A stretch of 51,426 nucleotides of DNA from Thomasclavelia saccharogumia DSM 17460 (GTDB taxonomy: Bacteria > Bacillota_I > Bacilli_A > Erysipelotrichales > Coprobacillaceae), in assembly GCF_000686665.1 (NCBI RefSeq), contig NZ_JMLH01000017.1, positions 1 to 51,426 on the forward strand, in the 5' to 3' direction. Every line of letters starts with the position of its first letter. Within the stretch, counting starts at the first letter, position 1. The translations under genes were made by a program, and so were the position numbers. Shown piece by piece: positions 10,321 through 28,746 of this stretch. The notes beneath the pieces were generated by a model. The model made no database searches. It had not been told where the DNA came from and worked only from the letters and a program-made list of their open reading frames with translations.

Positions 10321-10329
10321 TGATATAAT
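10321..10329 (+). promoter_or_regulatory. Extended -10 promoter
   Basis: TGATATAAT is a TGn-extended -10 box about 45 bp before the small gene at 10374. The -35 region is poor. Confidence 0.5.
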
Positions 10330-10373
10330 TCATTATGAATTTAATATTTTCACGTAAAAGGAGAGAGCTTATC

Positions 10374-10556: not shown

Positions 10557-10566
10557 ATAAATCGAT

Positions 10567-10605
10567 AAAGAGCTTGATTTTGATGATAAAATCAAGCTCT
10601 TTATT
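10567..10605 (+). terminator. Strong terminator
   Basis: AAAGAGCTTGATTTT and its exact reverse complement form a 15-bp stem around a six-base loop. The arms end in a T-run. Confidence 0.9.
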
Positions 10606-10662
10606 GTCTACAATAAAAAGCTTTAGCAAAGTGATAATGAAAAATCCTCAAATATAATATAA

Positions 10663-10960
10663 ATGCGTGCTTCTGGTATTAAATTGATGTGGAATGAAAC
10701 AATTGAAAATGACAAGATGATAGCCAAGCAGGCAACAAACTTTGATTTTAATGCAACACTTACTTATAGTGGAGGGAGAAGTGCTAAAAGATCAAAGTAA
10801 CATTCATTATTTATATACTGGTGTGACAAGTAAATTTCGTCTTTATTCAAGTACTACTACACTTCCAACTGAATCAGGAAGATATGTTGTTACTGTTGTG
10901 ACTTTAGGTGGTAATTATCTAGCTGCACCAATAACAAGAACATTCCAAATTACAAAATAA
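10663..10960 (+). pseudogene. Surface protein (MBG/Ig-like repeat) fragment
   Basis: Two frames together give pieces of a bacterial Ig-like MBG repeat: NATLTYSGG in the first, then EVLKDQSN, HYLYTGVTSKFRLYSSTT, TESGRYVVTVVTLGGNY and TRTFQITK in the second. Such repeats are normally tandem in large cell-wall adhesins. Here only about one repeat remains, with a frameshift, no signal peptide and no sorting signal. It is therefore a leftover of a deleted surface-protein gene. A hairpin terminator follows. Confidence 0.6.
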
Positions 10961-10982
10961 TTATTGTTATAAAATATCGATT

Positions 10983-11010
10983 AAAAGGCGATGATTCGCC
11001 TTTTATTTTT
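10983..11010 (+). terminator. Terminator after the surface-protein relic
   Basis: AAAAGGCGA pairs with TCGCCTTTT around TGAT and is followed by ATTTTT. Confidence 0.85.
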
Positions 11011-11438
11011 GCAAATAAAAACATTTAAGTAATCTAATAAAATAAAATTAATTTCTATATGCTTTAAAAGCATTATAATAATTTAATATAGGTATTAGAT
11101 ATTTGTTATTTATTATAATATAATATAGGTGTCAAAAGAGAAGAATAGTAAATGTTATTTTTGAGTCAATTAAAAAATTATCTAGTTTTAATTGTAATAG
11201 TTGGTTCGAGTAATATCTACTTTTTATCAGTTTCAACAGTATTCGTACTAATCAATTGAAAGATTTATTATTTATTGATTGATGAATTATTATTAAGATC
11301 TGATAAAGTGATTTTAAGTGTAAAGCTTATATTATTTTTTAAGTACTTTGTAGTATATATCCTTTTTATAGAAATACTACAAAATAAAATTTGAATAAGT
11401 GTTGTGTCTAAGTGATGAAGACAGAAATGGAGGAAAGT
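11011..11438. other. AT-rich non-coding stretch upstream of the flavodoxin gene
   Basis: No convincing gene is seen. The only structure of note is a pair of 10-bp inverted arms near 11347-11383, listed separately. Confidence 0.5.
11347..11383. repeat. Inverted repeat upstream of flavodoxin gene
   Basis: TTTGTAGTAT and ATACTACAAA are exact inverted arms separated by 17 bases, ending about 55 bp before the flavodoxin start. It may be a regulator site, for example for the LysR protein encoded just downstream, or an RNA hairpin. No T-run follows. Confidence 0.45.
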
Positions 11439-11915
11439 ATGAAAACTTTAGTTGCTTATTTTTCATGTAGTGGTGTAACAAAAAAAGTTGCGCAATCAAT
11501 TGCAGAGATATTATCAGGAGATCTTTATGAAATCAAGCCAAAGGTTCCTTATAGTTCTGCTGATTTGAATTGGAATGATCCTAACTCACGCAGTAGTCTA
11601 GAAATGAAAAACAAAACATCACGACCTGCAATAGCTACAGATATTGAAAATATGGAGCTATATGATGTAATCTTTATAGGATTTCCAATTTGGTGGTATC
11701 TTGCTCCAACGGTTATTAATACTTTTTTAGAAAGTTATGATTTTAAAGGTAAAACAATTGTTCCTTTTGCAACTTCTGGCGGAAGTAGTGCTGGTGAAAC
11801 AAATAAATATTTACAAGTTAGTTGTTCGAATGGTGTTAATTGGTATCCAACAACGATACTAAATGGATGTTCATTGGCTAAATTAACAAAATGGATCGAT
11901 GATTTAAATTTATAA
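11439..11915 (+). CDS. Cytoplasmic flavodoxin
   Basis: A 158-residue flavodoxin, an FMN-binding one- or two-electron carrier. LVAYFSCSGVTKKVAQSIA holds the phosphate-binding loop after the first beta strand. YDVIFIGFPIWWYLAPTVINTFLE is the conserved FMN-stacking region with tandem Trp, and TIVPFATSGGSSAGET is the third FMN loop. There is no signal peptide, so unlike the other flavodoxins in this island it is cytoplasmic. The ATG after GGAGGAAAGT is chosen over an upstream GTG. A truncated iron-alcohol-dehydrogenase gene follows after 14 bases, and a LysR gene after that. Confidence 0.9.
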   Translation: MKTLVAYFSCSGVTKKVAQSIAEILSGDLYEIKPKVPYSSADLNWNDPNSRSSLEMKNKTSRPAIATDIENMELYDVIFIGFPIWWYLAPTVINTFLESYDFKGKTIVPFATSGGSSAGETNKYLQVSCSNGVNWYPTTILNGCSLAKLTKWIDDLNL

Positions 11916-11929
11916 AGGAGAAGGTTTTT

Positions 11930-12097
11930 ATGAGTTTTCAAATGTGTATTCCTACCCGTATTTTATTTGGGACTGGAAAATTGAACGAATTACATCAACA
12001 AAAAATGCCAGAGAGACGATGGGGTTTGTTCTATGTTGCTCCAATCGAATTAGATCATGAAAATTGCAGAATAATATTTGAAAAAGCATATCAATAA
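11930..12097 (+). pseudogene. Iron-containing alcohol dehydrogenase, internally deleted
   Basis: A 55-codon open frame with a good ribosome site (AAAGGAGAAGG). Its first half (MSFQMCIPTRILFGTGKL, then ELHQQKMP) is the start of an iron-dependent alcohol dehydrogenase. Its second half (APIELDHENCRIIFEKAYQ) looks like the very C-terminus of the same family. The roughly 300 residues between, with all NAD and metal ligands, are missing. The join is in frame, so a peptide could be made, but it cannot be an enzyme. A terminator follows. Confidence 0.6.
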
Positions 12098-12104
12098 ATG
12101 TATG

Positions 12105-12143
12105 AAAAGATTGAAAATAAGATATATTTTTCAATCTTTTTTT
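12105..12143 (+). terminator. Terminator after the deleted dehydrogenase
   Basis: AAAAGATTGAAAA pairs with TTTTCAATCTTTT around about ten bases, followed by TTT. It separates this short operon from the LysR gene. Confidence 0.85.
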
Positions 12144-12198
12144 CCGTTGCTTAACATTCTTTTGAATGATAGAATAATAGAAATGAGGAGTGATCATG

Positions 12199-13086
12199 AT
12201 GGAAATACGGGTTTTAAAATATTTCTTAGCAGTGGCTCGAGAAGGAAATATCACCAAAGCTGCTGAAATTCTGCATATTACACAACCAACGTTAAGCAGA
12301 CAGCTGATGCAGTTAGAAGATGAATTAGGTGCTGCTTTATTTGTTAGGGGAAAGAGGAAAATCATATTAACCGAAGCAGGGATGCTTTTAAAAAGACGTG
12401 CTGAAGAAATAGTTAGTCTATCTGAAAAAACTGAATTAGAAATTAGTCATCAAGATAATGAGGTTTCAGGTGAAATCGTTTTAGCTTGTGGAATTACCGA
12501 AGCAACAAAAACAATGGGGCAATATATTCAAAAATTTAAGAATATTTATCCTGAAGTGATTTTTCATGTGCGAAATGGTAATAGCGATTTTATTATTGAA
12601 AATATCGATAAAGGACTTGTTGATATAGGTTTTGTTTTAGAACCAGTTAATTTAGAAAAACTTAATTTTTTAAAAATGCATAAGGTTGAAAGATATGGAA
12701 TTCTCACAAAGAAAAATTCTTTTTTGGCGCAAAAAGAATATATCATGCCTGAAGATCTAAAAGGCATTTCACTTATTAATACAGCAAGAAGTGAAACCCA
12801 AAATGAATTAAAAAAATGGATGGGTAGCGGCTATGATCAGCTTCATTTTGCAGCTGTATCAGAATTAACAACGACGGCATCTATTTTAGTTTCAAATAAC
12901 ATAGGACATGCTGTTGTTGTAGAAGGTTCAATTAATTATGCGGCTAATCAGGAATTATGTTTTAGACCTTTTTATCCAGAACTCATAACAACATCGCTCA
13001 TTGTCTGGAAAAAATATCAATCATTTAGCTTTACAGTATCTAAATTCATTGATTTTTTAGCAAAAGAAATCAAAGAGAATAGCTAG
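12199..13086 (+). CDS. LysR family transcriptional regulator
   Basis: A 295-residue LysR-type regulator. The winged helix-turn-helix reads VLKYFLAVAREGNITKAAE, then HITQPTLSRQLMQLEDELG and LFVRGKRKIILTEAG. The periplasmic-binding-like effector domain occupies the rest (for example GEIVLACGITEA and the hinge near ISLINTARS). The start is the second of two adjacent ATGs, eight bases from GAGGAG; MEIRVLKYF is the usual beginning. Relatives are often encoded next to the flavodoxin or dehydrogenase genes they control, which suggests the flavodoxin at 11439 as a target. That link is inferred from position only. Confidence 0.92.
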   Translation: MEIRVLKYFLAVAREGNITKAAEILHITQPTLSRQLMQLEDELGAALFVRGKRKIILTEAGMLLKRRAEEIVSLSEKTELEISHQDNEVSGEIVLACGITEATKTMGQYIQKFKNIYPEVIFHVRNGNSDFIIENIDKGLVDIGFVLEPVNLEKLNFLKMHKVERYGILTKKNSFLAQKEYIMPEDLKGISLINTARSETQNELKKWMGSGYDQLHFAAVSELTTTASILVSNNIGHAVVVEGSINYAANQELCFRPFYPELITTSLIVWKKYQSFSFTVSKFIDFLAKEIKENS

Positions 13087-13093
13087 TTTAAAT

Positions 13094-13137
13094 AAAAAAT
13101 AACAATGTAATTTTTCGTAAAAAACATTGTTATTTTT
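13094..13137. terminator. Bidirectional terminator
   Basis: AAAAATAACAATG and CATTGTTATTTTT form an exact 13-bp stem with A- and T-rich flanks. It lies between the LysR gene and the oppositely oriented Gx transporter gene, whose stop codon is inside the stem. Confidence 0.9.
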
Positions 13138-13645
13138 GTTTTATAATATAATTTCCTGTTTTTATATAAATAATTTGCGAGATTATACCGATTACTGTAC
13201 CTGTTATAGTTCCAATTAATAATAAATAAGGCAAATAATATAAAAATGTTGATGTGTTAAAGAAAAACATTGCTATTAATAATTGACCTATATTATGAAA
13301 AACACCTCCGATAATAGAAATAGTATAATTTGAAAATAATTTTGTTTGATAAAATAATGCCATCATAGTTAAAGATAATATCCCGCCAGCTAAACTATAT
13401 AACATCATATAAAGATTAGTAAAAGTTATCCCAACAATAAATACCCTAAGCAGCATAACAAAAAAAGCTTCTTTATAACCAAAACAGAATAACATGATTA
13501 TAGTGGTAATATTTGCAAGACCAATTTTTGTTCCCGGAATACTAAGATGAAAAGGAATCAATGTTTCGATATAGCTTAAAATAATTGCAATAGCACAGAA
13601 TAAGGCTAAATAACACATCCTTTTTACATTAATAGACTTTGACAT
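13130..13645 (-). CDS. Gx transporter family membrane protein (PF07456)
   Basis: A 171-residue integral membrane protein with about five to six helices. FHLSIPGTKIGLANITTIIML is the conserved segment (kept here to its core PGTKIGLAN) that gives the Gx family its name. The family was once annotated as heptaprenyl diphosphate synthase component I and resembles ECF-type S components. It is commonly paired with a NusG-II protein beside Rnf or ApbE genes, and homologous pairs occur in flavin-based extracellular electron transfer loci. The start is the ATG 11 bases after AAGGA, giving a 17-base overlap with the upstream NusG-II gene; a longer version from 13678 is less likely. Confidence 0.82.
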   Translation of the reverse strand: MSKSINVKRMCYLALFCAIAIILSYIETLIPFHLSIPGTKIGLANITTIIMLFCFGYKEAFFVMLLRVFIVGITFTNLYMMLYSLAGGILSLTMMALFYQTKLFSNYTISIIGGVFHNIGQLLIAMFFFNTSTFLYYLPYLLLIGTITGTVIGIISQIIYIKTGNYIIKQK

Positions 13646-13988
13646 CTTGATCACCATCCTTGCCATCAATGATTTCAACGATCAACTGATGTGGTAAACA
13701 AATAATACTAGCACCAGTTTTAGAAATATGCCCTTGTCTTATACAGGTATGATCTGGACATGTCGCCTTATCCATATATATTTCATTATTTTTAATAATT
13801 AAAATATTTTCATCATTGATATTGATTGTTTGATCTTCATTTAAATCATAAATACCATAATCTTCTTTATTAACTGTGATTTTAACTAAATGACCATTAT
13901 CAGATCTGTTTAATAAAAAAAATCCAATAATTATAATACTAATAACGAATATAATAATCATATCATATTTAAAAGTTTTATTCTTCAT
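13629..13988 (-). CDS. NusG domain II-containing membrane-anchored protein
   Basis: A 119-residue protein with one N-terminal membrane helix (about residues 9-27) and an extracytoplasmic NusG-II domain (PF07009). The signature is ATCPDHTCIRQGHIS followed by ASIICLPHQLIVEI, with the two-Cys motif and the conserved CLP. The ATG preceded by TGGAG is used; the reading frame extends upstream without a ribosome site. It forms an operon with the Gx transporter gene and diverges from apbE, a partnership seen in flavin-based electron transfer loci. Its biochemical role is not established. Confidence 0.85.
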   Translation of the reverse strand: MKNKTFKYDMIIIFVISIIIIGFFLLNRSDNGHLVKITVNKEDYGIYDLNEDQTININDENILIIKNNEIYMDKATCPDHTCIRQGHISKTGASIICLPHQLIVEIIDGKDGDQDVKVY

Positions 13989-14000
13989 TGTCTTACTCCA

Positions 14001-14009
14001 TGTTATAAT
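14001..14009 (+). promoter_or_regulatory. Extended -10 promoter of apbE
   Basis: TGTTATAAT is a TGn-extended -10 box just upstream of the apbE ribosome site, giving a very short leader. It lies in the divergent region with the NusG-II gene. Confidence 0.5.
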
Positions 14010-14028
14010 AGTTTGCAGGAGGCTTATC

Positions 14029-15006
14029 ATGAAAAAAATAATCAGTTTATTATTACTTTTTACATTGACTCTTTGTGGCTGTCAGAGTCAGTTTACGCCC
14101 CTATCAGATAAACAATTTTGCTTAGATACAATCGTTGAAATCACTTTATACGATTCAAAATCTACTGATATTTTAAATCACTGCTTCGATATTTGCAATG
14201 ATCTAGAGTTAGTTTTTTCATCAACAAATGAAAAGAGTGAATTATATAAAATCAATCATAACGTTAATAAATTACAAGAACAAACGATTTCAGATGATTT
14301 ATATGCGGTAATCAAAGAGGGGTTAAAATATAGTGAACTATCAAAAGGACAATTTGATATAACGATTGGATCTATTTCAGCATTATGGGATTTTAAAAAG
14401 GAGATACCTGAACTCCCTCAACAAGATATGATTCAAGAAAACTTACAAAATGTTTCTTATCAAAATATTATATTGACCACAAATAAGATTACATATCTCA
14501 ATGAAAATACTATGATTGATTTAGGAGCAATTGCAAAAGGATATATTGCTGATAAGATCAAGGATTATTTATTAAAAGAGAATATCAATAATGCCATTAT
14601 TAATTTAGGTGGCAATGTATTGTGTGTGGGAAATAAAAACAATGAGCAGTTTATGGTTGGATTGACAGATCCGCAAGAAATAGATCAATCTATTTTAACT
14701 TTATCAATAGATGATTTATCTGTTGTTACTAGTGGCGTATATCAAAGATATTTTGAATTGAATGGTCAAAAATATCATCATATCTTAAATCCCCAAACTG
14801 GTTATAGTTATGAAAATGGATTATCATCAGTAACGATCATATCTAAAACATCATTACAAGCAGATACTTTAAGTACTGTATGTTTTTCATTAGGAAAAGA
14901 AAAGGGGATAGAATTATTAAATTCAATGGATGATGTTTATGGTTGTTTTATTGATGAAAATAATCAAATCAGCTATTCAAATGGTTTTGAAGAATATATA
15001 AAATAA
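14029..15006 (+). CDS. apbE: FAD:protein FMN transferase ApbE (lipoprotein)
   Basis: A 325-residue lipoprotein; the signal ends in LTLCGC, with Cys as the lipid site. ApbE uses FAD to attach FMN covalently to Thr/Ser of exported redox proteins. The family motifs are present: IDLGAIAKGYIAD, INLGGNVLCVG, VVTSGVYQRYF with HHILNPQTGY, and the Mg-binding QADTLSTVCFSLG. AGGAGG precedes the ATG. It diverges from the NusG-II/Gx pair and stands at the head of the flavodoxin island. No protein with a recognisable FMN_bind domain is encoded in the window, so its substrate lies elsewhere or is unconventional. Confidence 0.94.
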   Translation: MKKIISLLLLFTLTLCGCQSQFTPLSDKQFCLDTIVEITLYDSKSTDILNHCFDICNDLELVFSSTNEKSELYKINHNVNKLQEQTISDDLYAVIKEGLKYSELSKGQFDITIGSISALWDFKKEIPELPQQDMIQENLQNVSYQNIILTTNKITYLNENTMIDLGAIAKGYIADKIKDYLLKENINNAIINLGGNVLCVGNKNNEQFMVGLTDPQEIDQSILTLSIDDLSVVTSGVYQRYFELNGQKYHHILNPQTGYSYENGLSSVTIISKTSLQADTLSTVCFSLGKEKGIELLNSMDDVYGCFIDENNQISYSNGFEEYIK

Positions 15007-15212
15007 AGAGATTTCTTGTTTTAGATTTAGAAAGAATATGGAAGAATTGATTTTATTGATTAATACAATGATTTCAATGCTTCCTTTTTTATTTCAATAA
15101 TGGGTTAAAATTTTATGCTTAAAAAGCATTAAATGCATTTATTTTAAGTATTAGACATAATTAATATTAGTATTTAAAATAAAAGTAGATAAAAAAGGGG
15201 TGCTTATTTGTA

Positions 15213-15554
15213 ATGAATATTCAAGATTTAACAAAATGTTATTACATTTTGCAGGAGGATATATTTAAATTTAAAAAATTAGGATTATTGGATAATGTAT
15301 CTACTATTAATGGTCAGATGGAGTTTGATGACGATGACGTTCGTCAAGTAATAGAAATGGTCAATTTAATGAAATTGGGTTTGGATGATCAAGAACTGGT
15401 GAAATATTACACCAATAAAGATATACAAACAGACATTTTAAAAAAAGTTCGAGTTTTGATCCTCGAACAATTACATTCGTATCAAAAGAAACTAGATGAT
15501 ATAGATTATATGATTTATGAAAAAGAAAAATTATGGCAAAAGGAGAAGATATGA
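15213..15554 (+). CDS. MerR-type transcriptional regulator
   Basis: A 113-residue protein. The N-terminal part (YYILQEDIFKFKKLGLL, then FDDDDVRQVIEMVNLMKLGLD) matches a divergent MerR winged helix, and a long helix (ILEQLHSYQKKLDDIDYMIYEK) forms the usual antiparallel dimer coil. There is no metal-binding Cys pattern. The start follows AAAAGGGG at a somewhat long spacing. It overlaps the next gene by ATGA, so they are translationally coupled. The most attractive target is the 19-bp-spacer promoter at 18148, the architecture that MerR proteins untwist. Confidence 0.75.
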   Translation: MNIQDLTKCYYILQEDIFKFKKLGLLDNVSTINGQMEFDDDDVRQVIEMVNLMKLGLDDQELVKYYTNKDIQTDILKKVRVLILEQLHSYQKKLDDIDYMIYEKEKLWQKEKI

Positions 15555-16585
15555 TACAAAAGATTATAAAAATTATTTTAGCTGTTTGTTTTGTATTTAC
15601 CATAACAGCCTGTCAAGTTCAAGAAGACACATTAGATAATCATCAGATCGATGCTGCAGAAAATAAGACAAAAGTACTTATAGCTTATTTTAGTTTATAT
15701 GGAAATGCTGATTATAATGAAAATACAGATGCTTTAACTTCAGCAAGCATTGTCATTGATAAAAATCAACGTCTAGGGATAACAGAATATGCTGCTAATT
15801 TGATTCAAGAAAAAACTGGTGGCGATAAGTACTTGATTGAGGTAGATGAAAAATATTCTGATGATTTTCAAGAAGTTATTGATTAAAATCATCGTGAGCA
15901 AAATCAAGATATCTTACCTCAAATAAGTGGACAGGATATACAAATTGACGAATACAATATTATCTTTATTGGTTATCCTGTATGGGCGACAGGAATCCCG
16001 CAAGTAATTCGCTTGTTTATGGAAAAATATGATCTAAGTGAAAAAACAGTGATTCCATTTTGCAGCCATAATGGATATGGAAGCGGGAACAGTTATGACG
16101 AAATTCAGGAATATTCAAAAAGCAAAAATGTATTAGAAGGAATTGCAATTGATTCTCAAGAAATCCTTGAATCTGAAAGTCAAATAGAACAATGGCTTGA
16201 TGATCTTGATTTAAATATCAATGATAGTAGTCAAATAAGTATACAAATTGGTGATTATCAATTAGATGGACAATTAAATGATAGTCAAATGGCATAACAA
16301 TTAAAAACGATGTTACCACTTACTGTTTCAATGGTTCATTATGGCAATAGAGAATTTTATGGCACGATTGATAAAACAATAGCGGTACAAGGTAGAGGAC
16401 AACTTTCTTTTGAAAATGGTGACATTACTTATTGTCCCACAAATAACTCACTTGCTATTTTCTATAATCAATCAGATAATCCTAATTTAACGATGAAAGT
16501 CTATGTTATAGGAAAAGTAACATCAGATTTAAAAATATTTCATGAACTCTCTTCAAAAGAAGATATAACATTTAATACAAAATAG
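15551..16585 (+). pseudogene. Secreted flavodoxin-cyclophilin-like fusion, two in-frame stops
   Basis: One frame of 345 codons begins with a lipoprotein signal (VFTITAC) coupled to the MerR gene. It then encodes a flavodoxin: KVLIAYFSLYGNADY, an insertion DALTSASIVI, GITEYAANLI, YNIIFIGYPVWATGIP and KTVIPFCSHNGYGSG. A cyclophilin-like domain follows: QIGDYQLDGQLNDS, then LKTMLPLTVSM, REFYGTIDK, NGDITYCPTNNSLAIFYN. TAA stops at 15884-15886 (VID-stop-NHRE) and 16295-16297 (QMA-stop-QLK) break it without any frameshift. Both positions suit Gln, so CAA-to-TAA changes explain them. Flavodoxin plus cyclophilin-like fusions are known in gut Firmicutes. Confidence 0.78.
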
Positions 16586-16596
16586 AAGGATAAATA

Positions 16597-17280
16597 ATGA
16601 AAAAGATTTTAATGATTCTTATGGTATTGATGTTGGTCGGATGTCAAAATACCCAAAATGAAGAACCTTCATCATTACAGGGTGATACTAAGCAAACTGA
16701 AGAAACTACAAGTAACCAAACAGAAAAAGATCAAAAAATTCTTGTGGCTTATTTTTCAAGAGTAGGTAATACAGATTTTCCTAGTGATGTTGATACTTCT
16801 TCATCAGCAAGCGTAATTGTAGATGGAGATATACTTGTTGGAAGTACCGAATATATTGCTAATGTTATTGTAGAACAAACAGGTGGAGATAAATTTCTTA
16901 TTGAGACACAAACAAAATATTCAGCTGATTATGATGAGCTGGTTGATCAACAGCAAGGTGAAAGAAATAAGAATGCACGTCCAGTTTTAGCATCACATGT
17001 TGAAGATTTTGATAGTTATGATGTTATCTATTTAGGTTTCCCTAACTGGTGGTATGGTATGCCAATGCCTCTTTATACATTTTTAGAAGAATATGATTTT
17101 TCAGGCAAAATAATAATTCCTTTTAATACATCAGGTGGTTCAGGATTTTCTGATGCAATAAGTGAGATAGAGGCTTTATGTCCAAATGCTACAGTTTTAG
17201 ATGGATATACAACAAGTGGCAGCAGTGTTCAAAATGATCGAGAAGAAATCATCGAATGGATCAATGAAGTTAGTCAGTAA
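16597..17280 (+). CDS. Flavodoxin-fold lipoprotein
   Basis: A 227-residue lipoprotein with signal MKKILMILMVLMLVGC and a polar linker of about 30 residues. The flavodoxin domain starts at KILVAYFSRVGNTDF, then has an insertion containing VDTSSSASVIV before VGSTEYIANVI, where normal flavodoxins go straight into the first helix. The FMN-stacking region reads YDVIYLGFPNWWYGMPMPLYTFLE, and the last loop is IIPFNTSGGSGFS. It would sit on the outer face of the membrane. It starts 11 bases after the broken flavodoxin-cyclophilin gene, in one operon with the next gene. It closely resembles the lipoprotein at 22488. Confidence 0.88.
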   Translation: MKKILMILMVLMLVGCQNTQNEEPSSLQGDTKQTEETTSNQTEKDQKILVAYFSRVGNTDFPSDVDTSSSASVIVDGDILVGSTEYIANVIVEQTGGDKFLIETQTKYSADYDELVDQQQGERNKNARPVLASHVEDFDSYDVIYLGFPNWWYGMPMPLYTFLEEYDFSGKIIIPFNTSGGSGFSDAISEIEALCPNATVLDGYTTSGSSVQNDREEIIEWINEVSQ

Positions 17281-17314
17281 TTTTATAAATGTTATTTAAT
17301 ATGGGGGAACGTTG

Positions 17315-17908
17315 ATGAAAAAGAAATTTCTAAAAAGAGATGTGATATTTAGGTTAATTGTTTTTATTACAGTTATTATTCAAGGATCTGTATTATTAAA
17401 ATATAATGTAACTTCTTTTCAAAATAATGAACAGGATGAGTCAGCTTATATCTTGAATATTCATGAAATACCAAAAATAGAATCTAATATCATATTTGAA
17501 AATGAAAGAAATATTTTGATTTTGTACGATGGTGCTTGTGGTTCTCTTGAGACTTTTAATTCTATGATACAAGAAAAAATAGTATGTGATATTTGTGAAA
17601 TCGATCGTATTGAAAGCTGTCAAATAGAAGATTATGATTTGATATTATTAGGAAATGTAGTGATAGATAATCAACCTAGTGAATCAATGATAAATTTTTT
17701 GGAGCAATATGATTTCTCTGGATTAGATATAGCACCTTATTGGGTAGGAGGAATGGATCATGATTTATTTGAAAGTACGATGCGATCATATCTACAAGGA
17801 GCAGATATTTTACCTGGTTTAGGTTTTAATGGTGATGAAATTTCTGAAACTGAGGAAATCGGTTATTTTATTGATGGGTGGTTAACAACAGTATATACAA
17901 CTACATAA
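17315..17908 (+). CDS. Membrane-anchored degenerate flavodoxin-like protein
   Basis: A 197-residue protein with an N-terminal helix (VIFRLIVFITVIIQGSVLL) and no lipobox. The domain keeps the flavodoxin strand order: NILILYDGACGSLETFN in place of the usual AYFS.TGNT loop, YDLILLGNVVI in place of the WW-containing loop, then FLEQYDFSGLDIAPYWVGG. The phosphate-binding and FMN-stacking residues are thus missing. It may be a structural partner or a diverging duplicate. The ATG after GGGGGAACGTTG is used. It ends the operon; a terminator follows. Confidence 0.7.
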   Translation: MKKKFLKRDVIFRLIVFITVIIQGSVLLKYNVTSFQNNEQDESAYILNIHEIPKIESNIIFENERNILILYDGACGSLETFNSMIQEKIVCDICEIDRIESCQIEDYDLILLGNVVIDNQPSESMINFLEQYDFSGLDIAPYWVGGMDHDLFESTMRSYLQGADILPGLGFNGDEISETEEIGYFIDGWLTTVYTTT

Positions 17909-17913
17909 ATAGT

Positions 17914-17952
17914 AAAAGATGAAGAATTTATAATTGATCTTCATCTTTTGTT
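17914..17952 (+). terminator. Terminator of the flavodoxin operon
   Basis: AAAAGATGAAGA and TCTTCATCTTTT form a 12-bp stem around about 12 bases, followed by a short T-rich stretch. Confidence 0.85.
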
Positions 17953-18147
17953 ACATTAAAGATAGTTTTAGTATCTGATTTAACTATGTAAAACTTTTTG
18001 TAAAGATTTTGTTGTTGATTTTATGATCAAAAATTTTTTATAAATCAATAAATTTAGAAAAATATATTGCTAATCTTATAGCAGATTAAAAATTTATGTG
18101 TTTTATAAGTTGTGTAAATAAAATTTTAAAAAAATTGAAAATAGTAC

Positions 18148-18178
18148 TTGACCGATTCTTACAATCGGTTGATACAAT
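18148..18178 (+). promoter_or_regulatory. MerR-type promoter with 19-bp spacer and operator
   Basis: TTGACC (-35) and TACAAT (-10) are 19 bases apart, two more than optimal. The spacer carries the perfect inverted repeat ACCGATT-cttac-AATCGGT (18151-18169), which begins inside the -35 box. This is the classic architecture activated by MerR-family regulators that distort the spacer DNA. It drives the operon starting at 18218. The MerR gene at 15213 is the nearest candidate regulator. Confidence 0.85.
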
Positions 18179-18217
18179 TACATTGTAGTAAAAGAAAGCA
18201 AGGAGGTAAATATAAAG

Positions 18218-18946
18218 GTGAAAAAACAAAAAGCACAATTATTTAATAATAAATTTATAACTACTGATCCAGAATTTGTAGATATTATTAAAAACTTTTT
18301 ACAAGAAGATGTCTTGAATGCTGGTAATTTATCAGAGAAAGAGAGAATGCTATGTATTTTATCAGTCCTATTAGGCTGTCAAGGAATGGAAGAATATTGT
18401 CATATGCTTCATGTAGCATTAGATTCAAATATTGATCCTGTTGCTATTAAGGAAACTGTTTACCAAGCAGCTGCTTATTTAGGCATTGGGAGAATATCTG
18501 ATTATTTATTAAAGACGAATGAAATTATGAAAGAATATGGAATTTCTTTACCATTACCAGCTCAGAGTACAACAAATAGAGAATCAAGATTTGAAAAAGG
18601 GCTTGCAAAACAAGTGGAATTATTTGGTTTGCAAATGGCTGATAGACAAAAAGATACAGGACCAAGGCAAAATATTAATCGTTGGCTAGCTTCTAATTGT
18701 TTTGGAGATTACTATACGAGAAATGGACTTAATGACCGAGAAAGAGAAATGATAACTTTTTGTTTTATTTTAGCACAGGGTGGTTGTGAAAATCAGTTAA
18801 GAGGACATACTGCGGGAAACTTTGGGGTAGGAAATGATAAAGAAAAACTGTATCAGGTTGTTGAACAATGTATGCCTTATATTGGCTATCCTCAATCATT
18901 AAATGCATTGGCTATTATTGATGAAGTAGCTTCAAAATTAAAATAA
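18218..18946 (+). CDS. Carboxymuconolactone decarboxylase-like protein
   Basis: A 242-residue protein made of two CMD-type helical repeats (PF02627). The first spans LSEKERMLCILSVLLGCQG to about AAYLGIGRISDYL. The second runs from LNDREREMITFCFILAQGGC through QLRGHTAGNFGVG to CMPYIGYPQSLNAL. The CxxC redox pair of AhpD is absent; single Cys residues and the RGH motif are kept. In Bacillus subtilis the CMD-like yraC belongs to the AdhR (MerR/NmlR family) carbonyl-stress regulon with an alcohol dehydrogenase, and here a CMD gene, a dehydrogenase and a MerR-type promoter again occur together. The GTG start follows AAGGAGG. It is first in the operon. Confidence 0.88.
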   Translation: MKKQKAQLFNNKFITTDPEFVDIIKNFLQEDVLNAGNLSEKERMLCILSVLLGCQGMEEYCHMLHVALDSNIDPVAIKETVYQAAAYLGIGRISDYLLKTNEIMKEYGISLPLPAQSTTNRESRFEKGLAKQVELFGLQMADRQKDTGPRQNINRWLASNCFGDYYTRNGLNDREREMITFCFILAQGGCENQLRGHTAGNFGVGNDKEKLYQVVEQCMPYIGYPQSLNALAIIDEVASKLK

Positions 18947-18959
18947 TGGGGATAGTGTA

Positions 18960-19643
18960 ATGAAGTATCAAAGAGGAAGGAAAATGATATTAGTTATATT
19001 AGGTGTCATTATTTTGGTTCTTGCTGGTATCGTTATTTATTGTATGACAGGAAGTTCTTTGCATTATGAAACACAAAACATTGTTAAAGGTGAGAAAGAT
19101 TCAAGATCGATCATTATCTATTTTTCAAGATCAAATGCTTTAGATTATGATGATGAGATCGATGTTAGTACCCATGCAAGTTTAAATTTAAAAAATGATC
19201 ACATAGAAGGTAATACAGAAATAGCTGCTAAGATGATTCAAGAGAAGACTGGCGATGATTTATATTCAATTCAAGTTTCAAAAAGCTATAGATCCCCATT
19301 TCTTGCTACCTCTTTAAGAGCCTGGTTAGAAAAATATTTAAATATTAAACCAGATTTATCAAACATGCCAGAAAATTTAGATGATTATGATGTTATTTAT
19401 TTAGGATATCCTATTTGGTGGTACAAAGAACCTATGGCAGTTGATACATTTTTAGAAAACTATGATTTAAGGGGAAAAACAATTATTCCATTTTGTACAA
19501 GCACAAGTTCATCGATTGATGAAAGTGTTCAATCAATACAAAAAATATGCCCTCATTCTCATATACTTGAAGGGGTAAGAATGGAACAGGCAAATGAAAA
19601 AGAAATAGATGAATGGTTAAAAAAAATAAATATTGGAGGATAA
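18960..19643 (+). CDS. Membrane-anchored flavodoxin
   Basis: A 227-residue protein with an uncleaved N-terminal helix (MILVILGVIILVLAGIVIY) and an outward-facing flavodoxin domain. SIIIYFSRSNALDYDDE is followed by the insertion VSTHASLNL and NTEIAAKMI. The FMN-stacking part is YDVIYLGYPIWWYKEPMAVDTFLE, and the last loop is TIIPFCTSTSSSI. It lies between the CMD-like gene and the alcohol dehydrogenase with 13- and 4-base gaps, so all three share the MerR-type promoter. This implies that the membrane flavodoxin and the dehydrogenase work in the same response. Confidence 0.88.
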   Translation: MKYQRGRKMILVILGVIILVLAGIVIYCMTGSSLHYETQNIVKGEKDSRSIIIYFSRSNALDYDDEIDVSTHASLNLKNDHIEGNTEIAAKMIQEKTGDDLYSIQVSKSYRSPFLATSLRAWLEKYLNIKPDLSNMPENLDDYDVIYLGYPIWWYKEPMAVDTFLENYDLRGKTIIPFCTSTSSSIDESVQSIQKICPHSHILEGVRMEQANEKEIDEWLKKINIGG

Positions 19644-19647
19644 AACG

Positions 19648-20808
19648 ATGAATACATTTAATTATGAATTAAAAACAAAAACTTATTTTGGAAAAGGTGC
19701 AGCAAAACAAAATTTACCAGCTGAATTAGCAAAAGCAGGACATACTGTGATGCTTGCTTATGGTGGCGGATCAATAAAAAAGAATGGAATTTATGATGAA
19801 ATAAAAGAAATCTTAGAAAATGCGGGAAAAGAAGTTGTCGATTTTTCAGGTATTATGCCTAATCCTACATATGCAAAAGTGCAGGAAGGGGCTAAATTGG
19901 CTAAAGATAAAAAAGTTGATTTTATTTTAGCAGTTGGCGGAGGCTCTGTAATTGACTGCTGTAAAATTATTTCAGCTCAAGCAAAATTGGATCAGGATAT
20001 TTTTGATTATGAGTATGTTGATAAAAAATTTCCTACTACTGGTATCTTAATGGGAGCAATCGTTACAGCGAGTGGAACTGGTGCTGAAATGAATGCCGGA
20101 GCAGTCATTACACATGAAGAAAAAATGTGGAAAGGACCGATCGTTGGAACACAGGCCGATTTTGCAATATTAGATCCCTGGTATACCAAATCATTACCAA
20201 TGAAGCAGGTTATCTCAGGGGCATTCGATACATTAAGTCATTGTATGGAGACATATTTAGGAACTCCTAGAATTCCTAATTTATCAGATCGAATCAACGA
20301 ATCAATTATGCAGTTAGTTATTGAAAATATGCGAAAGTTGTTAGTTGATGAATATGATATGGAAGCAAGAAGTGAATTGATGTGGGCTTCTGCGATGGCA
20401 GAAAATGGTATTTTAAAAATTGGAAAGGTTACTGATTTTCAAGCACATCAAATAGAACATCAGTTAGGAGCATATACAGATTGTAATCATGGACAGGGGC
20501 TTGCAATCATTCATCCAGTATTATATCGCCATATGTACAAAGAAGGATTGGAACAATTTGTAAGACTAGCCAAAGAAGTTTGGCATGTTGATCCAGCTGA
20601 TAAAACAGCTGAAGAAATAGCATTAGCAGGGATCGATGCTTTAACTAATTTTATTAAAGAGATGGGACTTCCTGCAACATTAAAAGAAATTAATATTGAT
20701 GATGTTGAGATGCTAAGAAAAGTAGCTGATACTTGTAATTTAACAGCTGGATGTGCAAAGAAATTTGAAAGAGATGAAATCTTTGAAATTCTTAAAGAAT
20801 GCTTATAA
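19648..20808 (+). CDS. Iron-containing alcohol dehydrogenase (butanol dehydrogenase type)
   Basis: A 386-residue group III alcohol dehydrogenase that reduces aldehydes with NAD(P)H. The Rossmann half has DFILAVGGGSVIDCCKII, and the metal half has GAFDTLSHCMETYLG and DFQAHQIEHQLGAYTDCNHGQGLAI, which supply the Asp and three His ligands. It resembles YugJ/BdhA-type enzymes. GGAGG precedes the ATG used, four bases after the flavodoxin gene; an upstream in-frame start at 19633 overlaps that gene. Within a MerR-controlled operon a role in detoxifying reactive aldehydes is likely. Confidence 0.93.
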   Translation: MNTFNYELKTKTYFGKGAAKQNLPAELAKAGHTVMLAYGGGSIKKNGIYDEIKEILENAGKEVVDFSGIMPNPTYAKVQEGAKLAKDKKVDFILAVGGGSVIDCCKIISAQAKLDQDIFDYEYVDKKFPTTGILMGAIVTASGTGAEMNAGAVITHEEKMWKGPIVGTQADFAILDPWYTKSLPMKQVISGAFDTLSHCMETYLGTPRIPNLSDRINESIMQLVIENMRKLLVDEYDMEARSELMWASAMAENGILKIGKVTDFQAHQIEHQLGAYTDCNHGQGLAIIHPVLYRHMYKEGLEQFVRLAKEVWHVDPADKTAEEIALAGIDALTNFIKEMGLPATLKEINIDDVEMLRKVADTCNLTAGCAKKFERDEIFEILKECL

Positions 20809-20814
20809 TGACAG

Positions 20815-21494
20815 TAAAATAAAGAAAAAGAAATATCTAAGATTTCTATTTGTTTTATTAATATGCTTATTTTTAGGGTGTAATATTCAAAATAATGAAT
20901 CAGTAGATGAAAAGGATGATGATCTGACCATTCTTGCAGATCAATCATATATTATGCAGGAATTAAACATAAGTAGGGATAGTCAACAAATATATGGTTA
21001 ATTATATAGACCTCTGTATATTGATAAGAAGGTGCCAATAATTATTTATTGTCATGGTCTTAGTGGTTATCATGAAAGTGGTGTTCAGTATGCTAAGGAA
21101 CTTGTAAAATTAGGCTATGGGGTTTATTGTTTTGATTTTTGTGGTGGTGGATTATGCGCAGACTTTGTTTAAGAGTACTGATGATATTCCAGATAATTAT
21201 TATCATCTATGGATGAGGGTAGGAAAAGTCTATTTTGAAAAATTGTTGAATTATGATATTTATGATGAAATATCTTCTTATGACAATGATGTTCTTATCA
21301 TTCATAGTGATGCTGATAGTGTTGTATTGCTATCTTATTAAAAAAAAGCAGAGAATGTTTATTTATCTGCTCAATTAAAAGTGATTGAAGGAGCAGACCA
21401 TGGGTTTTATGATTATAATTTTAAAGAAGCAATGAGTTATATAGAAAATTATTTAGTTGAAAATATATATGCTGAAGATAACTATAAATATTGA
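20815..21494 (+). pseudogene. Alpha/beta hydrolase lipoprotein, broken
   Basis: A lipoprotein signal (FLFVLLICLFLGC) lacks an in-frame ATG. The frame then runs to an ochre stop at 20999-21001 (QIYG-stop-LYRP, where Gln suits) and on through PIIIYCHGLSGYHESG and YGVYCFDFCGG. After that about 90 residues, including the nucleophile elbow GxSxG, are deleted. The frame changes and resumes as DDIPDNYYHLWMRVGKVYFE, DVLIIHSDADS and VIEGADHGFYDY with another stop at 21339-21341. The serine nucleophile is gone, so it is inactive. It was probably part of the preceding operon. Confidence 0.78.
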
Positions 21495-21640
21495 ATAGGT
21501 AATTATTGTTAGATATTTTCAAATAGGTTTATCTTAATTAATGTAATTCAGATTATTATTGAAATAATCTTAGATCATATTTGGAATATACAAGATGGCT
21601 TTTGTTGAATCAAGAAATAAATTTTTAGGAGGAATTGAAA

Positions 21641-22216
21641 ATGAAAAAAGTATTATCGTTTTTATTAGCTGTGTTTGTTACGCTGACTCTAGCGGGATGT
21701 AGTCAAACAAATCAAAAAGAACAAAATCAAACCTCAGAGGATTCAAAACAAACTGTAACAGCTACAGATCAAGATATTCTTATTGCTTATTTCTCGTATA
21801 GTGGCAATACTGAAAAAGCAGCTCAAGAAATTCAAAAACAGACAGGTGGGCAATTGGTAGAAATTACTAGAAAAGAAGCATATCCAAATGATTTTTATGA
21901 TATAGCTGAAAATGAGATAATCAATGGGGAACAGCCTGAAATCACTTTATCTATTAATAGTATTGATCAATATGATATTATTTTTATTGGTTATCCTATC
22001 TGGTGGCAAAAAGCTCCGGCAATGATCAACACATTTGTTCATCAGTTTGATTTTACTGATAAAACTGTTATTCCTTTTTGTACAAGCAGTAGTGATGGTA
22101 TAGAAGAAAGTTTAGATGTATTTGATGATCTTCAAGATCAAGCAAATGTGAAAGAGGGCTTACGAATTAATGATTATGATGAAATATCTAGCTGGTTAGA
22201 TAGAGTATTAGAATAA
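21641..22216 (+). CDS. Flavodoxin lipoprotein
   Basis: A 191-residue lipoprotein with signal ending LTLAGC and a Gln/Thr-rich linker. This flavodoxin has a canonical loop, ILIAYFSYSGNTEKAAQEI, without the insertion seen in its neighbours. YDIIFIGYPIWWQKAPAMINTF provides the FMN-stacking tryptophans, and TVIPFCTSSSDGI is the third loop. The ATG seven bases after AGGAGG is used. It has about 140 bases of its own upstream sequence, so it is likely transcribed separately. It should carry FMN on the outer face of the membrane. Confidence 0.9.
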   Translation: MKKVLSFLLAVFVTLTLAGCSQTNQKEQNQTSEDSKQTVTATDQDILIAYFSYSGNTEKAAQEIQKQTGGQLVEITRKEAYPNDFYDIAENEIINGEQPEITLSINSIDQYDIIFIGYPIWWQKAPAMINTFVHQFDFTDKTVIPFCTSSSDGIEESLDVFDDLQDQANVKEGLRINDYDEISSWLDRVLE

Positions 22217-22487
22217 AGTAATCAAATATGTATAAAAAACATATTAATTTTGACAAATCATCTAGCGATTAACTTTATCATGATTGCAAGAAAGTTGATT
22301 GCTGATGATATTACAAAAGAGCAGTCATTTTATCTTTATGTATTTATTTCTATTTTATCAATTTAGCAATGGATATAGTGGTTGTTTAACCGATTGAAAA
22401 GTAAGAAATGAAATCGATTTAGTGATAAAGAGATTCTGCTTTAAAAAAAGTTTATGAATGTAGCAAAAATGTGTAAGGAGAAACTAT
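22217..22487. other. Intergenic region without recognisable features
   Basis: This stretch is AT-rich and holds only short open frames with no family resemblance. It probably contains the promoter of the next flavodoxin, but no clear boxes were found. Confidence 0.4.
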
Positions 22488-23174
22488 ATGATGAAAAAAA
22501 TAATTAAACTATTGTTAGTGACAATGTTTACTGTATCATTGGTTGGATGTTCATCAGATAATGAGCGATCAAATACAGTTGACACAACTGAGCAGATAAA
22601 TCAGAATTCAAATGATACACAGATCACAGCAGATAAAATCTTAGTTGTTTATTTTTCAGTACCGGAAATGGATGGTGTAGATACATCATCTTCAGCAAGT
22701 AGAGTTGCGACTGAAGATGGTGTTGTAGGGAATACCCAATATGTTGCAAATATCATTTCACAGGAAATGGGTGATGATTTATATAGAATTGAAACAGTCC
22801 AGACCTACCCCGAAACACATGATTCGTTATTGGAATTTGCTTATGAAGAACGTAGTGAAGATGCAAGACCAGAATTAAAAAATGAGATAGATAATTTTGA
22901 TGAATATGATACAGTATTTATTGGTTATCCTAACTGGAATGCTGATCTACCAATGCCATTGTATACTTTTTTAGAACAATATGATTTTACTGATAAAACA
23001 ATTATTCCATTTACTACACATGGTGGTAGTGGTTTTTCAGGAACGATTGGAGTAATTGCTGACTTACAGCCAAATGCAACAGTTATCTCAAATGGTTTAT
23101 CGATTTCAAGAAATGATGTGGCGTCTTGTGATAATGAAATTAAGGAATGGTTAGATGAACTTCAAATAAAATAA
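22488..23174 (+). CDS. Flavodoxin-fold lipoprotein
   Basis: A 228-residue lipoprotein with signal ending VSLVGC. The domain begins KILVVYFSVPEMDGVDTSSSASR, so the usual TGxT phosphate loop is replaced by a stretch that runs directly into the DTSSSAS insertion, followed by VGNTQYVANII. YDTVFIGYPNWNADLPMPLYTFLE keeps one of the two Trp residues, and TIIPFTTHGGSGFS is the last loop. It is most like the lipoprotein at 16597, which suggests duplication. AAGGAG lies eight bases before the first of two adjacent ATGs. The cytochrome-b-like gene follows after about 56 bases. Confidence 0.86.
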   Translation: MMKKIIKLLLVTMFTVSLVGCSSDNERSNTVDTTEQINQNSNDTQITADKILVVYFSVPEMDGVDTSSSASRVATEDGVVGNTQYVANIISQEMGDDLYRIETVQTYPETHDSLLEFAYEERSEDARPELKNEIDNFDEYDTVFIGYPNWNADLPMPLYTFLEQYDFTDKTIIPFTTHGGSGFSGTIGVIADLQPNATVISNGLSISRNDVASCDNEIKEWLDELQIK

Positions 23175-23230
23175 ATAAAGAAATTACTTATTAAAAGAGC
23201 AGCTTTCGTATATTATAGGTGGTGATATAG

Positions 23231-23902
23231 ATGAAAAGGAAATTGATGAGAAGCTTGGATATTATGATGTTTGTTTTAGTATTATTATTGATGGCTTTTC
23301 ATTTGACGGGTCAACAATTACATGAATTGTTAGGAACAATTACTCTTCTTTGTTTTATTGTTCATCATATATTGAATTGGAAGTGGCATCAAAGCATCTT
23401 AAAAAGACGTTATCAATTGCCAAGAAAATTAATGACTTTTGTAAATGTTATTCTTTTTATAGATGTAATGTGTTTAGGAATAAGTGGAATGTTGATGTCT
23501 AATTATGTTTTTCGTTTTATTCCTTCATTTGGATCGATTTCATTGGCTAGAAGAATTCATATGATTGCTTCATATTGGGGATTTGTTATGATGTCTGTTC
23601 ATTTGGGATTCCATTGGCATATGATCCTCATACCAATAAAAAAGAAGTTTGATAATCTATCTTATTATACACAGTTAATTTTTTATAAATTTTTACCAGT
23701 TGTTATATGTTTGATAGGGTTGTTCTTTTTTATAAAAAATAGAATCTATATGTATATGTTTTCGATAGAAAATTTTGTATTTTTTGATTATCAAATGAAT
23801 TTTTTAAATTTTATTAAAGAATATCTTTTCATTAGTTTTTTATATATAGGAATAGGATATATAATACTAAAAAAAATAAGGGATAGAAGGAGTAAAGAAT
23901 AA
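23231..23902 (+). CDS. DUF4405 cytochrome-b-like membrane protein
   Basis: A 223-residue membrane protein. The first half has four helices with His residues in positions expected for haem b: H24, H31, H45/H46 and H53, then H110 in ARRIHMIASYWGF and H124, H128, H130 in SVHLGFHWH. This is the DUF4405 pattern, a cytochrome b561-like fold proposed to pass electrons across the membrane to flavoproteins. A second, more hydrophobic part adds two helices. GGTGG precedes the ATG. The stop overlaps the start of the Fe-S flavoprotein by one base, so they are coupled and may form a cytoplasm-to-membrane relay. Confidence 0.85.
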   Translation: MKRKLMRSLDIMMFVLVLLLMAFHLTGQQLHELLGTITLLCFIVHHILNWKWHQSILKRRYQLPRKLMTFVNVILFIDVMCLGISGMLMSNYVFRFIPSFGSISLARRIHMIASYWGFVMMSVHLGFHWHMILIPIKKKFDNLSYYTQLIFYKFLPVVICLIGLFFFIKNRIYMYMFSIENFVFFDYQMNFLNFIKEYLFISFLYIGIGYIILKKIRDRRSKE

Positions 23903-24519
23903 TGAAAGTTATTTTAATAAATGGCAGTCCCAATGCAAGAGGCTGTACATATACAGCACTGCAGGAAGTTGAAAAGGTTTTAAATGCTGAAAATATCAAT
24001 ACAGAAATTATTCAGGTAGGAAATAAAGATATTCGCGGCTGTATTGGATGTCGTCAATGTAAAAAAATAGGAAAGTGCATTTTTGATGATTATGTTAATG
24101 ATGTAGCAGCAAAATTTACAGAATGTGACGGTATCGTGATAGGATCACCTGTTTATTTTGCTTCTGCCAATGGAACCCTTGTTTCTTTTATTGATCGTTT
24201 GTTTTATAGTAGTCAGTGTGATAAAACAATGAAAGTTGGCGCAGCTGTAGTTTCAGCAAGACGAGGAGGCTGTTCAGCAACATTTGATGAATTAAACAAA
24301 TATTTTACAATTTCTTCGATGCCGGTTGTTTCTAGTCAATATTGGAATAGTGTTCATGGATATACTCCTGAGGATGTAAGAAAAGATGCAGAAGGACTAC
24401 AAACGATGCGGGTACTGGGGAAGAATATGGCATTTTTAATAAAAAGTATCCAGCTAGGGAAAGAAAAGTATGGACTTCCTGAAAAAGAAAAAAGTGTGCA
24501 TACTCATTTTATAAGATAG
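23902..24519 (+). CDS. Iron-sulfur flavoprotein (Isf-type, flavodoxin fold)
   Basis: A 205-residue cytoplasmic NADPH-dependent FMN reductase-like protein. ILINGSPNARGCTYTAL is the FMN phosphate loop. CIGCRQCKKIGKC (Cys 47, 50, 53, 59; CX2CX2CX5C) is the compact cysteine motif that binds a 4Fe-4S cluster in Isf proteins, and GIVIGSPVYFASANGTL follows. Isf-type proteins move electrons between ferredoxin and other acceptors. TAATG overlap with the DUF4405 gene implies that it feeds or drains that membrane cytochrome. Confidence 0.9.
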   Translation: MKVILINGSPNARGCTYTALQEVEKVLNAENINTEIIQVGNKDIRGCIGCRQCKKIGKCIFDDYVNDVAAKFTECDGIVIGSPVYFASANGTLVSFIDRLFYSSQCDKTMKVGAAVVSARRGGCSATFDELNKYFTISSMPVVSSQYWNSVHGYTPEDVRKDAEGLQTMRVLGKNMAFLIKSIQLGKEKYGLPEKEKSVHTHFIR

Positions 24520-25187
24520 TTTTAAAAGAATAAAATGATAATGTTTCGTAATTTATTAATAAGTTTATAACTTATTTAACCTAAAAAGACATCATACCCA
24601 AATGTTTCCTTTGCACAATTATTTTAAGTTGTGGTGTATTTTAGAAAGCTGATAATTCAGGAAATATTATCTTTTTCGATTGAAAATGCTAGATCATGCC
24701 GGATTGTAGAAAGTAGAGTCTATACAATTGGTAATGATGAATTAAGAGCAAAGAGTTACTCATTAAATTATAAATATGTTTTTGAATATGAAATAAAATT
24801 TTAGATATTTAATAAATGAATTTAACTGTTTTAGATGAAAATAGAAAAGTCTTTCAAGAACTACTGGAAGTAATGTGTAGATTCCTGATGAGACTTTTTT
24901 TGTTATGAATTTTTATTAATTTAGTGAATTTACAATATTATTAATAAATTCATGATCTTATTGGCTAGAAACTGTTTTTTGATAGTGTCGCTTTTACTTA
25001 AAATAGTATCTATCTTATCAAAACGAGATTTTGTAATATAGGGTTATTGGTATTATTAGAGGATTGATTGATAATAAAATTGTAGATAGATTGGATGGCA
25101 TGTTGATTTATATTATGATTGAAATAAGTAAATTGATGAATGCAAATTATAACAAGTTTAAGATATATTATTTATACTTTTATCATA
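24520..25187. other. Long non-coding, decayed stretch
   Basis: About 670 bases with no gene I can support. Short open pieces have no family resemblance. One structured segment with a T-run (24845-24901) is listed separately. Confidence 0.5.
24845..24901 (+). terminator. Possible terminator or structured RNA end
   Basis: AAAAGTCT and AGACTTTT pair around 38 bases that can themselves fold (CTAC with GTAG, GGAA with TTCC). A T-run follows. It lies 330 bases beyond the Fe-S flavoprotein, so it may end an unrecognised transcript. Confidence 0.4.
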
Positions 25188-25234
25188 AAAAAACTGGTTA
25201 ATTACAAGATATAGCTTGTATTATCCAGTTTTAT
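25188..25234 (-). terminator. Terminator of the ABC exporter operon
   Basis: On the minus strand AAAACTGG..TAAT.ACAAG pairs with CTTGTAATTAACCAGTTTT, followed by a T-run, about 10 bases after the last exporter stop codon. Confidence 0.85.
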
Positions 25235-25244
25235 TTTATTCAAT

Positions 25245-28731: not shown

Positions 28732-28746
28732 ATTATCCCTCCTGTA

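Follow-up and report, generated by a model that had tools for sequence, protein, structure and literature searches.

A probable accessory and partly decaying ApbE/DUF4405/Flavodoxin_4 electron-transfer system in Thomasclavelia saccharogumia

Gene clusters combining apbE, DUF4405, ApbE-flavinylated Flavodoxin_4 proteins and a flavin transporter have been described by Huang et al. 2024 (PMC11334425), who found that one DUF4405 protein binds heme b. The Flavodoxin_4 proteins of that report carry an insertion between the first strand and the first helix (b1-a1), and two such proteins were flavinylated with the cognate ApbE depending on the motif serine/threonine. Here, we analysed a related gene array at positions 11,439 to 24,519 of a 51,426-nucleotide stretch of T. 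saccharogumia DSM 17460, which represents an entire contig (G000:C16) of a genome of 3.14 Mb and will be referred to as the window. We consider it probable (roughly 0.72) that this island represents the described ApbE/DUF4405/Flavodoxin_4 extracytosolic electron-transfer system in an accessory, partly decaying form. The original prediction had regarded the arrangement as undescribed, which does not stand, as the basic system is reported in PMC11334425.

Common to both are the clustering of Flavodoxin_4 proteins with a motif in the b1-a1 insertion, ApbE, DUF4405 and a flavin transporter, here presumably the PF07456 protein. Judged by the parts of that report available to us, the present locus differs by several exported flavodoxins with and without motif, an Isf-like gene beside DUF4405, a cyclophilin-like fusion, partial breakage and the lack of a UbiA or ferrochelatase match in the genome. 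Three further systems are comparable in part, each in the portion of the source at hand. Listeria, in which FAD export needs EetB and flavinylation is performed by FmnB (PMC9973259), shares the PF07456 protein and the ApbE-type transferase, whereas here the window has no FMN_bind match and the genome no UbiA match. MsrQ is a heme membrane protein reduced by the flavin reductase Fre (PMC11031084); both arrangements comprise a heme membrane protein and a cytosolic flavin reductase, with electrons passed outward (here presumably), but an Isf-like FMN_red protein would take the place of Fre and flavodoxins that of MsrP, in a parallel of function. DUF4405 was recognized in 2015 as a cytochrome b family in archaea (PMC5898192); the Pfam family and the conserved heme histidines are the same, whereas those proteins are archaeal and no flavodoxin array appears in the relevant passages.

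This reading is carried by the gene content, the motif, conserved histidines, gene adjacency and gene fusions observed here or in related loci. The PF07456/NusG_II pair would export FAD, and ApbE would link FMN covalently to the serine of the motif that the insertions of 16597, 18960 and 22488 carry (formerly also that of 15551; genes are named by their start positions). DUF4405, as a six-helix heme b cytochrome, would carry electrons from the cytosolic face to the exported flavodoxins, including the motif-less lipoprotein 21641, which may hold its FMN non-covalently. The adjacent Isf-like cytosolic flavoprotein would be the likely donor to DUF4405, as Fre is for MsrQ. We infer this direction of electron flow, the role of Isf and the presence of terminal acceptors beyond the flavodoxins.

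Flavodoxins, flavinylation motif and ApbE

Flavodoxin_4 was identified by PF12682 with the Pfam cut-off of 24 bits, and export signals (lipobox or N-terminal helix) were called by a hydropathy script. The genes of the proposed system are the following.

11439..11915, + strand: cytosolic Flavodoxin_4 protein of the SxSGVT type, no insertion or motif (PF12682, 227 bits; no signal)
13130..13678, - strand: EetB-type flavin exporter S subunit (PF07456, 140 bits)
13629..14030, - strand: NusG_II protein, presumably EetA-type by position (PF07009, 93 bits)
14029..15006, + strand: ApbE FMN transferase (PF02424, 278 bits; lipobox by eye)
15551..16585, + strand: broken gene for a flavodoxin lipoprotein with motif DALTSAS and a cyclophilin-like domain (two in-frame TAA; lipobox by script)
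16597..17280, + strand: flavodoxin lipoprotein, motif DTSSSAS in a 25-aa insertion (PF12682, 105 bits; alignment, lipobox by script)
17315..17908, + strand: degenerate flavodoxin relative with hydrophobic N-terminus and no FMN loop (hhalign; loop and N-terminus by eye)
18960..19643, + strand: membrane-anchored flavodoxin, motif DVSTHAS (PF12682, 99 bits; alignment, N-terminal membrane helix by script)
21641..22216, + strand: flavodoxin lipoprotein, no insertion, no motif (PF12682, 101 bits; alignment, lipobox by script)
22488..23174, + strand: flavodoxin lipoprotein, motif DTSSSAS in a 21-aa insertion (PF12682, 73 bits; alignment, lipobox by script)
23231..23902, + strand: DUF4405 membrane protein with six predicted helices (Pfam, 34 bits; conserved histidines)
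23902..24519, + strand: Isf-like FMN_red flavoprotein, CX2CX2CX5C (FMN_red, 100 bits)

The original prediction listed seven flavodoxin-fold genes, all of which start in real reading frames. Five proved to be intact Flavodoxin_4 genes above the cut-off, four exported and one cytosolic. The remaining two have to be qualified: the 15551 frame, which scores 65.5 bits for PF12682 with one stop inside, is interrupted by TAA at 15884-15886 and 16295-16297, and 17315 has a full frame reaching only 13-15 bits, below the cut-off. The latter is a distant Flavodoxin_4 relative (hhalign probability 97.4, E 1.5e-11) that by eye lacks the phosphate-binding loop and tryptophan. The homologue of 15551 in the congener G004 is intact, with 350 aa and a C-terminal cyclophilin-like domain. 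The predicted lipoprotein signals or anchors were recovered for all six genes (four lipoboxes and one helix by script, 17315 by eye), the broken 15551 among them. The six exported genes thus comprise one broken gene, one without FMN loop and four, including the broken one, with a flavinylation-type motif. The AlphaFold model of 16597 (mean pLDDT 85.6, falling to ~70 at residues 61-70 inside the insertion) best matched the putative flavoproteins 4ici, 4j8p and 3klb in the PDB, the last of which was solved with FMN. Elsewhere in the genome (L049, G000:C44:19909-21020), two more Flavodoxin_4 copies adjoin each other, one with an N-terminal membrane helix and the other with six in-frame stops.

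In 15551, 16597, 18960 and 22488, the motif D-x-x-[ST]-x-A-S lies in an insertion of 21-25 residues between strand 1 and helix 1. It is not present in every exported member: 21641 has neither insertion nor motif, and no motif was seen by eye in 17315. These two are counted as neighbours only and are not claimed as flavinylated members.

To place these classes in a wider context, we compiled 79 named loci from the top of 585 matches obtained with motif-bearing proteins as query, a choice that biases class frequencies towards the motif-bearing class. Family labels in these loci derive from profiles iterated on window seeds, and from Pfam for a subset including the fusion proteins and L064 described below. 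From 205 flavodoxin domain matches, 39 without a readable b1 and three fragments were dropped, leaving 163, of which 141 belong to the named loci. The pattern D-x4-[AP]-[ST], a widened version set after seeing the sequences, occurred in 41 of these 141 domains: in 37 of 102 exported, four of eight unplaced and none of 31 cytosolic ones (exported versus cytosolic, Fisher 1.4e-5). It was present in 37 of the 43 exported domains in which at least 16 residues are inserted and missing from 65 of the 102 exported domains, 46 of which resemble 21641 in having fewer than 10 inserted residues. In 19 of the 79 loci, exported members with the motif occur together with exported members that have no insertion. 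Exported flavodoxins lacking the motif are therefore common even in a motif-biased sample, and the published view that signs of flavinylation are found in exported flavodoxins has to be qualified accordingly.

The genome contains two ApbE genes, one in the window and one on contig C93 (L046). The latter lies with NusG_II/PF07456-like genes (profile label) and two further frames, one of 518 aa containing four FMN_bind stretches and one of 881 aa containing a single stretch; this cluster is a predicted separate extracytosolic flavin system. The eight FMN_bind matches of the genome all lie outside the window, with six on C93 and one each on C44 and C4, and the window flavodoxins are therefore the likely substrates of the window ApbE. 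NusG_II adjoins PF07456 in the window according to Pfam. eetB homologues have been defined by PF07456, and eetA-eetB pairing is widespread, as the relevant part of PMC9973259 states; the NusG_II protein is a putative EetA by its position.

Three observations on ApbE weigh against this assignment. The FMN_bind proteins on C44 and C4 could also be served by the window ApbE. In a comparison of genes at most three positions from a flavodoxin (near, 546 genes) with those at least six positions away (far, 369 genes), ApbE was not enriched (2/546 near, 1/369 far); DUF4405 was (25/546 versus 0/369, p 2.8e-6). Finally, presence of ApbE anywhere in the genome did not separate motif-bearing (24/28) from motif-lacking loci (17/22), genome completeness not being stated for this comparison, and was dropped as a marker of motif-bearing flavodoxins. 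Among the named loci, ApbE was found in five of 79, four of which hold a motif-bearing flavodoxin.

DUF4405 as partner of exported flavodoxins

The window gene 23231 is the sole DUF4405 match in the genome (E 0.001). In an alignment of 17 sequences, H31, H45 and H110 are invariant and H124 is near-invariant. Free-standing DUF4405 genes number 26 and are spread over 25 of the 79 loci; one of them is a 71-aa fragment, and for 20 of the 26 a flavodoxin gene is located immediately upstream on the same strand. These upstream flavodoxins comprise eight exported members without insertion, five with the motif, three with another insertion, three unclassed and one called cytosolic. Exported flavodoxins directly preceding DUF4405 thus lack the motif more often (11) than they carry it (5), which argues against a strictly flavinylated partner and indicates that covalent attachment is not needed for pairing. 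DUF4405 was absent from all seven loci with only cytosolic members and present in 24 of 63 with an exported or unplaced member, a difference that is not significant (p 0.087).

In four related loci, DUF4405 and flavodoxin are fused in one polypeptide. L113 and L118 encode DUF4405-Flavodoxin_4 and L074 and L095 DUF4405-FGE-like-Flavodoxin_4 proteins; the DUF4405 part is above the cut-off in L113, L118 and L074 and reaches 19.9 bits in L095, below the cut-off of 26.7. The hydropathy script predicted a seventh helix in all four fusions and six helices in both free-standing forms examined. With the amino terminus inside, the seventh helix would place the flavodoxin part outside, and the fused flavodoxins should consequently face outward. 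Loop charges fit this topology in L118, L074 and L095; in L113, basic residues also follow helix 7, which makes its topology less clear and counts against the main reading. A word search of the main text of PMC11334425 gave no mention of fusions or of a tandem arrangement, and judged by that text and by limited literature searches such DUF4405-flavodoxin fusions are unreported. They offer a single-polypeptide test of the step from cytochrome to flavodoxin, which published work presumes.

Further multidomain proteins were noticed. In a metagenome-assembled genome of the Anaeroplasmataceae, a single polypeptide of 592 aa contains three Flavodoxin_4 stretches (L088:9332-11110), and FGE-sulfatase (formylglycine-generating-enzyme-like) domains occur between or beside flavodoxins in proteins with N-terminal hydrophobic stretches (L095:1089-3149, L074:5128-7407, L092:13917-15725).

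Taken with the passages of PMC11334425 on DUF4405 and Flavodoxin_4, the adjacency in 20 of 26 cases and the fusions support the earlier suggestion that DUF4405 feeds exported flavodoxins. The exported flavodoxins might instead be surface reductases in their own right, acting on quinones, aldehydes or other small molecules, with their FMN reduced by diffusible donors and DUF4405 as a side partner of only one of them. Iron-type alcohol dehydrogenases (Fe-ADH) are indeed enriched near flavodoxins (27/546 versus 4/369, p 0.0012), an aldo/keto reductase is encoded in L064, the cyclophilin-like and FGE-type fusions suggest differing ligands, and the failure of ApbE to be enriched nearby fits as well; carboxymuconolactone decarboxylase-like (CMD) and hydrolase genes showed no significant enrichment (13 near versus 4 far, p 0.21, and 11 versus 2, p 0.087, respectively). 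We nevertheless regard this explanation as unlikely, since DUF4405 is fused or directly adjacent to exported flavodoxins and since a supply of NAD(P)H outside the cell is not to be expected.

Electron donor, quinone and heme

The Isf-like protein following DUF4405 matches FMN_red with 100 bits and contains CX2CX2CX5C, the four cysteines being invariant in eight aligned sequences. A compact four-cysteine motif on an FMN_red fold is what we take to define Isf. The motif was present in 31 of the 33 Isf-like proteins of the named loci and the window. The best PDB sequence match (7d38, titled flavone reductase; E 4.5e-6, 30 bits) is too weak to assign function.

Isf directly follows DUF4405 in the window and adjoins it in G004 as well, and Isf-like genes are enriched near flavodoxins (23/546 versus 3/369, nominal p 0.0019 with ten families tested). 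In L064 (Candidatus Cryptoclostridium obscurum), flavodoxin, aldo/keto reductase, flavodoxin, hydrolase, Isf, DUF4405, ApbE, NusG_II and PF07456 follow each other in this order on one strand, the one operon seen to be complete. These findings lend moderate support to the predicted role of Isf as cytosolic donor. A direct Isf neighbour in only one of the 26 free-standing DUF4405 cases in the 79 loci speaks against it and favours the alternative that Isf has no connection with DUF4405 and that another donor, such as exogenous quinol, feeds the cytochrome. This alternative is a serious one, to which we assign somewhat less than even odds: the enrichment of Isf-like genes and the L064 gene order argue against it, as does the quinone evidence. 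UbiA had no match in this genome and was found in 14 of 14 controls; the genome thus probably makes no menaquinone, cell-made menaquinol is an unlikely donor, and the likely one becomes a flavoprotein of the cytosol, for instance the neighbouring Isf-like protein.

Ferrochelatase likewise had no match in this genome, the family being found in eight of 14 controls. This weighs against a heme cytochrome unless heme is taken up, and heme is probably imported. The search results suggest that the genome makes neither quinone nor heme, and outward electron transfer by bacteria without their own quinone is poorly explained. Beyond the described system, the multi-class array, the presumably outward-facing fusions and a genome without markers of quinone or heme synthesis appear notable. 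A more far-reaching picture, which we put forward tentatively and hold to be rather doubtful as a whole, would be a modular outward hub: DUF4405 with scavenged heme, receiving electrons from an iron-sulfur flavoprotein of the cytosol in a cell that makes no quinone, would serve covalent and non-covalent surface flavodoxins, each with a lineage and an acceptor of its own, with modules fused elsewhere (DUF4405-flavodoxin and multi-flavodoxin proteins).

Origin, decay and setting of the island

At least three flavodoxin open reading frames occur in 20 and at least four in eight of the 79 loci, split frames being counted separately. The other window flavodoxins are only ~33-44% identical to 16597. 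In a quick tree of 160 domains with SH-aLRT supports only, in which the G004 homologue replaced the too short 15551, the nearest relatives of 16597, 21641 and 22488 beyond G004 belong to other families. 18960 is on a long branch with unsure placement; 11439 is nearest to congeners and falls into a clade of 13 rows, 12 of them cytosolic. Low identity and different lineages rule out recent tandem duplication, so that the array does not represent a recent tandem expansion.

The genus is represented by nine genomes in the searched set. The island was compared with ~20-kb stretches beside RecU-GpsB-TetR from G001, G002, G003, G007 and G008 (G005 and G006 were left out); the names RecU and GpsB are our presumed assignments of the flank genes from their sequences. 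By tblastn (E 1e-8), these five stretches contain no flavodoxin, ApbE, PF07456, NusG_II, DUF4405, CMD or LysR gene of the island, and only distant Fe-ADH and ABC-transporter matches and one Isf match at 29% identity were obtained. In G003, ~140 bp separate TetR from the next Fe-ADH, and the two genes after it are those after the corresponding window Fe-ADH at 29877. The remaining sites vary, with an Fe-ADH match 2.8 kb on in G008, Fe-ADH on the other strand in G002 and none in G001 and G007. From this comparison, the inserted stretch would extend from ~10200 to 29877. The flavodoxin island is accessory by this gene-content criterion, as originally predicted. A related, larger island with more genes is present in G004.

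Further genes of the island are listed below. The assignments of ApbE, the NusG_II/PF07456 pair, DUF4405, Isf-like, CMD and Fe-ADH neighbours made in the original prediction were confirmed by Pfam; the decay of the Fe-ADH remnant near 11930 and of the hydrolase at 20753-21490, which is in pieces, had been overlooked.

11930..12097, + strand: Fe-ADH gene remnant (frame read by eye; G004 has two longer pieces at this position)
12190..13086, + strand: LysR regulator (PF00126, PF03466)
15213..15554, + strand: small regulator-like protein heading the flavodoxin operon, MerR-like via profile relatives
18218..18946, + strand: carboxymuconolactone decarboxylase-like protein (PF02627, 68 bits)
19648..20808, + strand: iron-type alcohol dehydrogenase (PF00465, 140 bits)
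20753..21490, + strand: broken lipoprotein alpha/beta hydrolase (split frames; the intact G004 homologue of 317 aa is Abhydrolase_1)

The product of 15213..15554 has no Pfam match above cut-off of its own; L043:8673-9094, which carries the same iterated-profile label, is MerR_1.

That several island genes are broken counts against a fully working system, and the island might be a decaying relic in which most of the array is inactive and the cell makes use of no more than one or two flavodoxins. This would fit the two stops in 15551, the loss of the FMN loop in 17315, the hydrolase and one Fe-ADH in pieces, the C44 copy with its six stops, and the shortened G004 frames of the 17315 homologue and DUF4405 (149 and 154 aa). 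ApbE, NusG_II, PF07456, DUF4405, Isf and four exported flavodoxins, on the other hand, have full frames, and the window and G004 copies are 97% (16597) and 93% (21641) identical. We therefore consider a relic improbable and prefer the partly decaying electron-transfer system.

Two additional exported flavodoxins were found in G004 (L043, G004:C172:27127-28494), one of the class with long insertion but no motif. In the window, an ABC transporter pair and a second TetR-like regulator (25245-29442, judged by sequence) complete the inserted stretch, and a short frame at 10742-10960 looks like what is left of a large surface protein; at the same place, G004 encodes a protein of 754 aa (kinship by position only).

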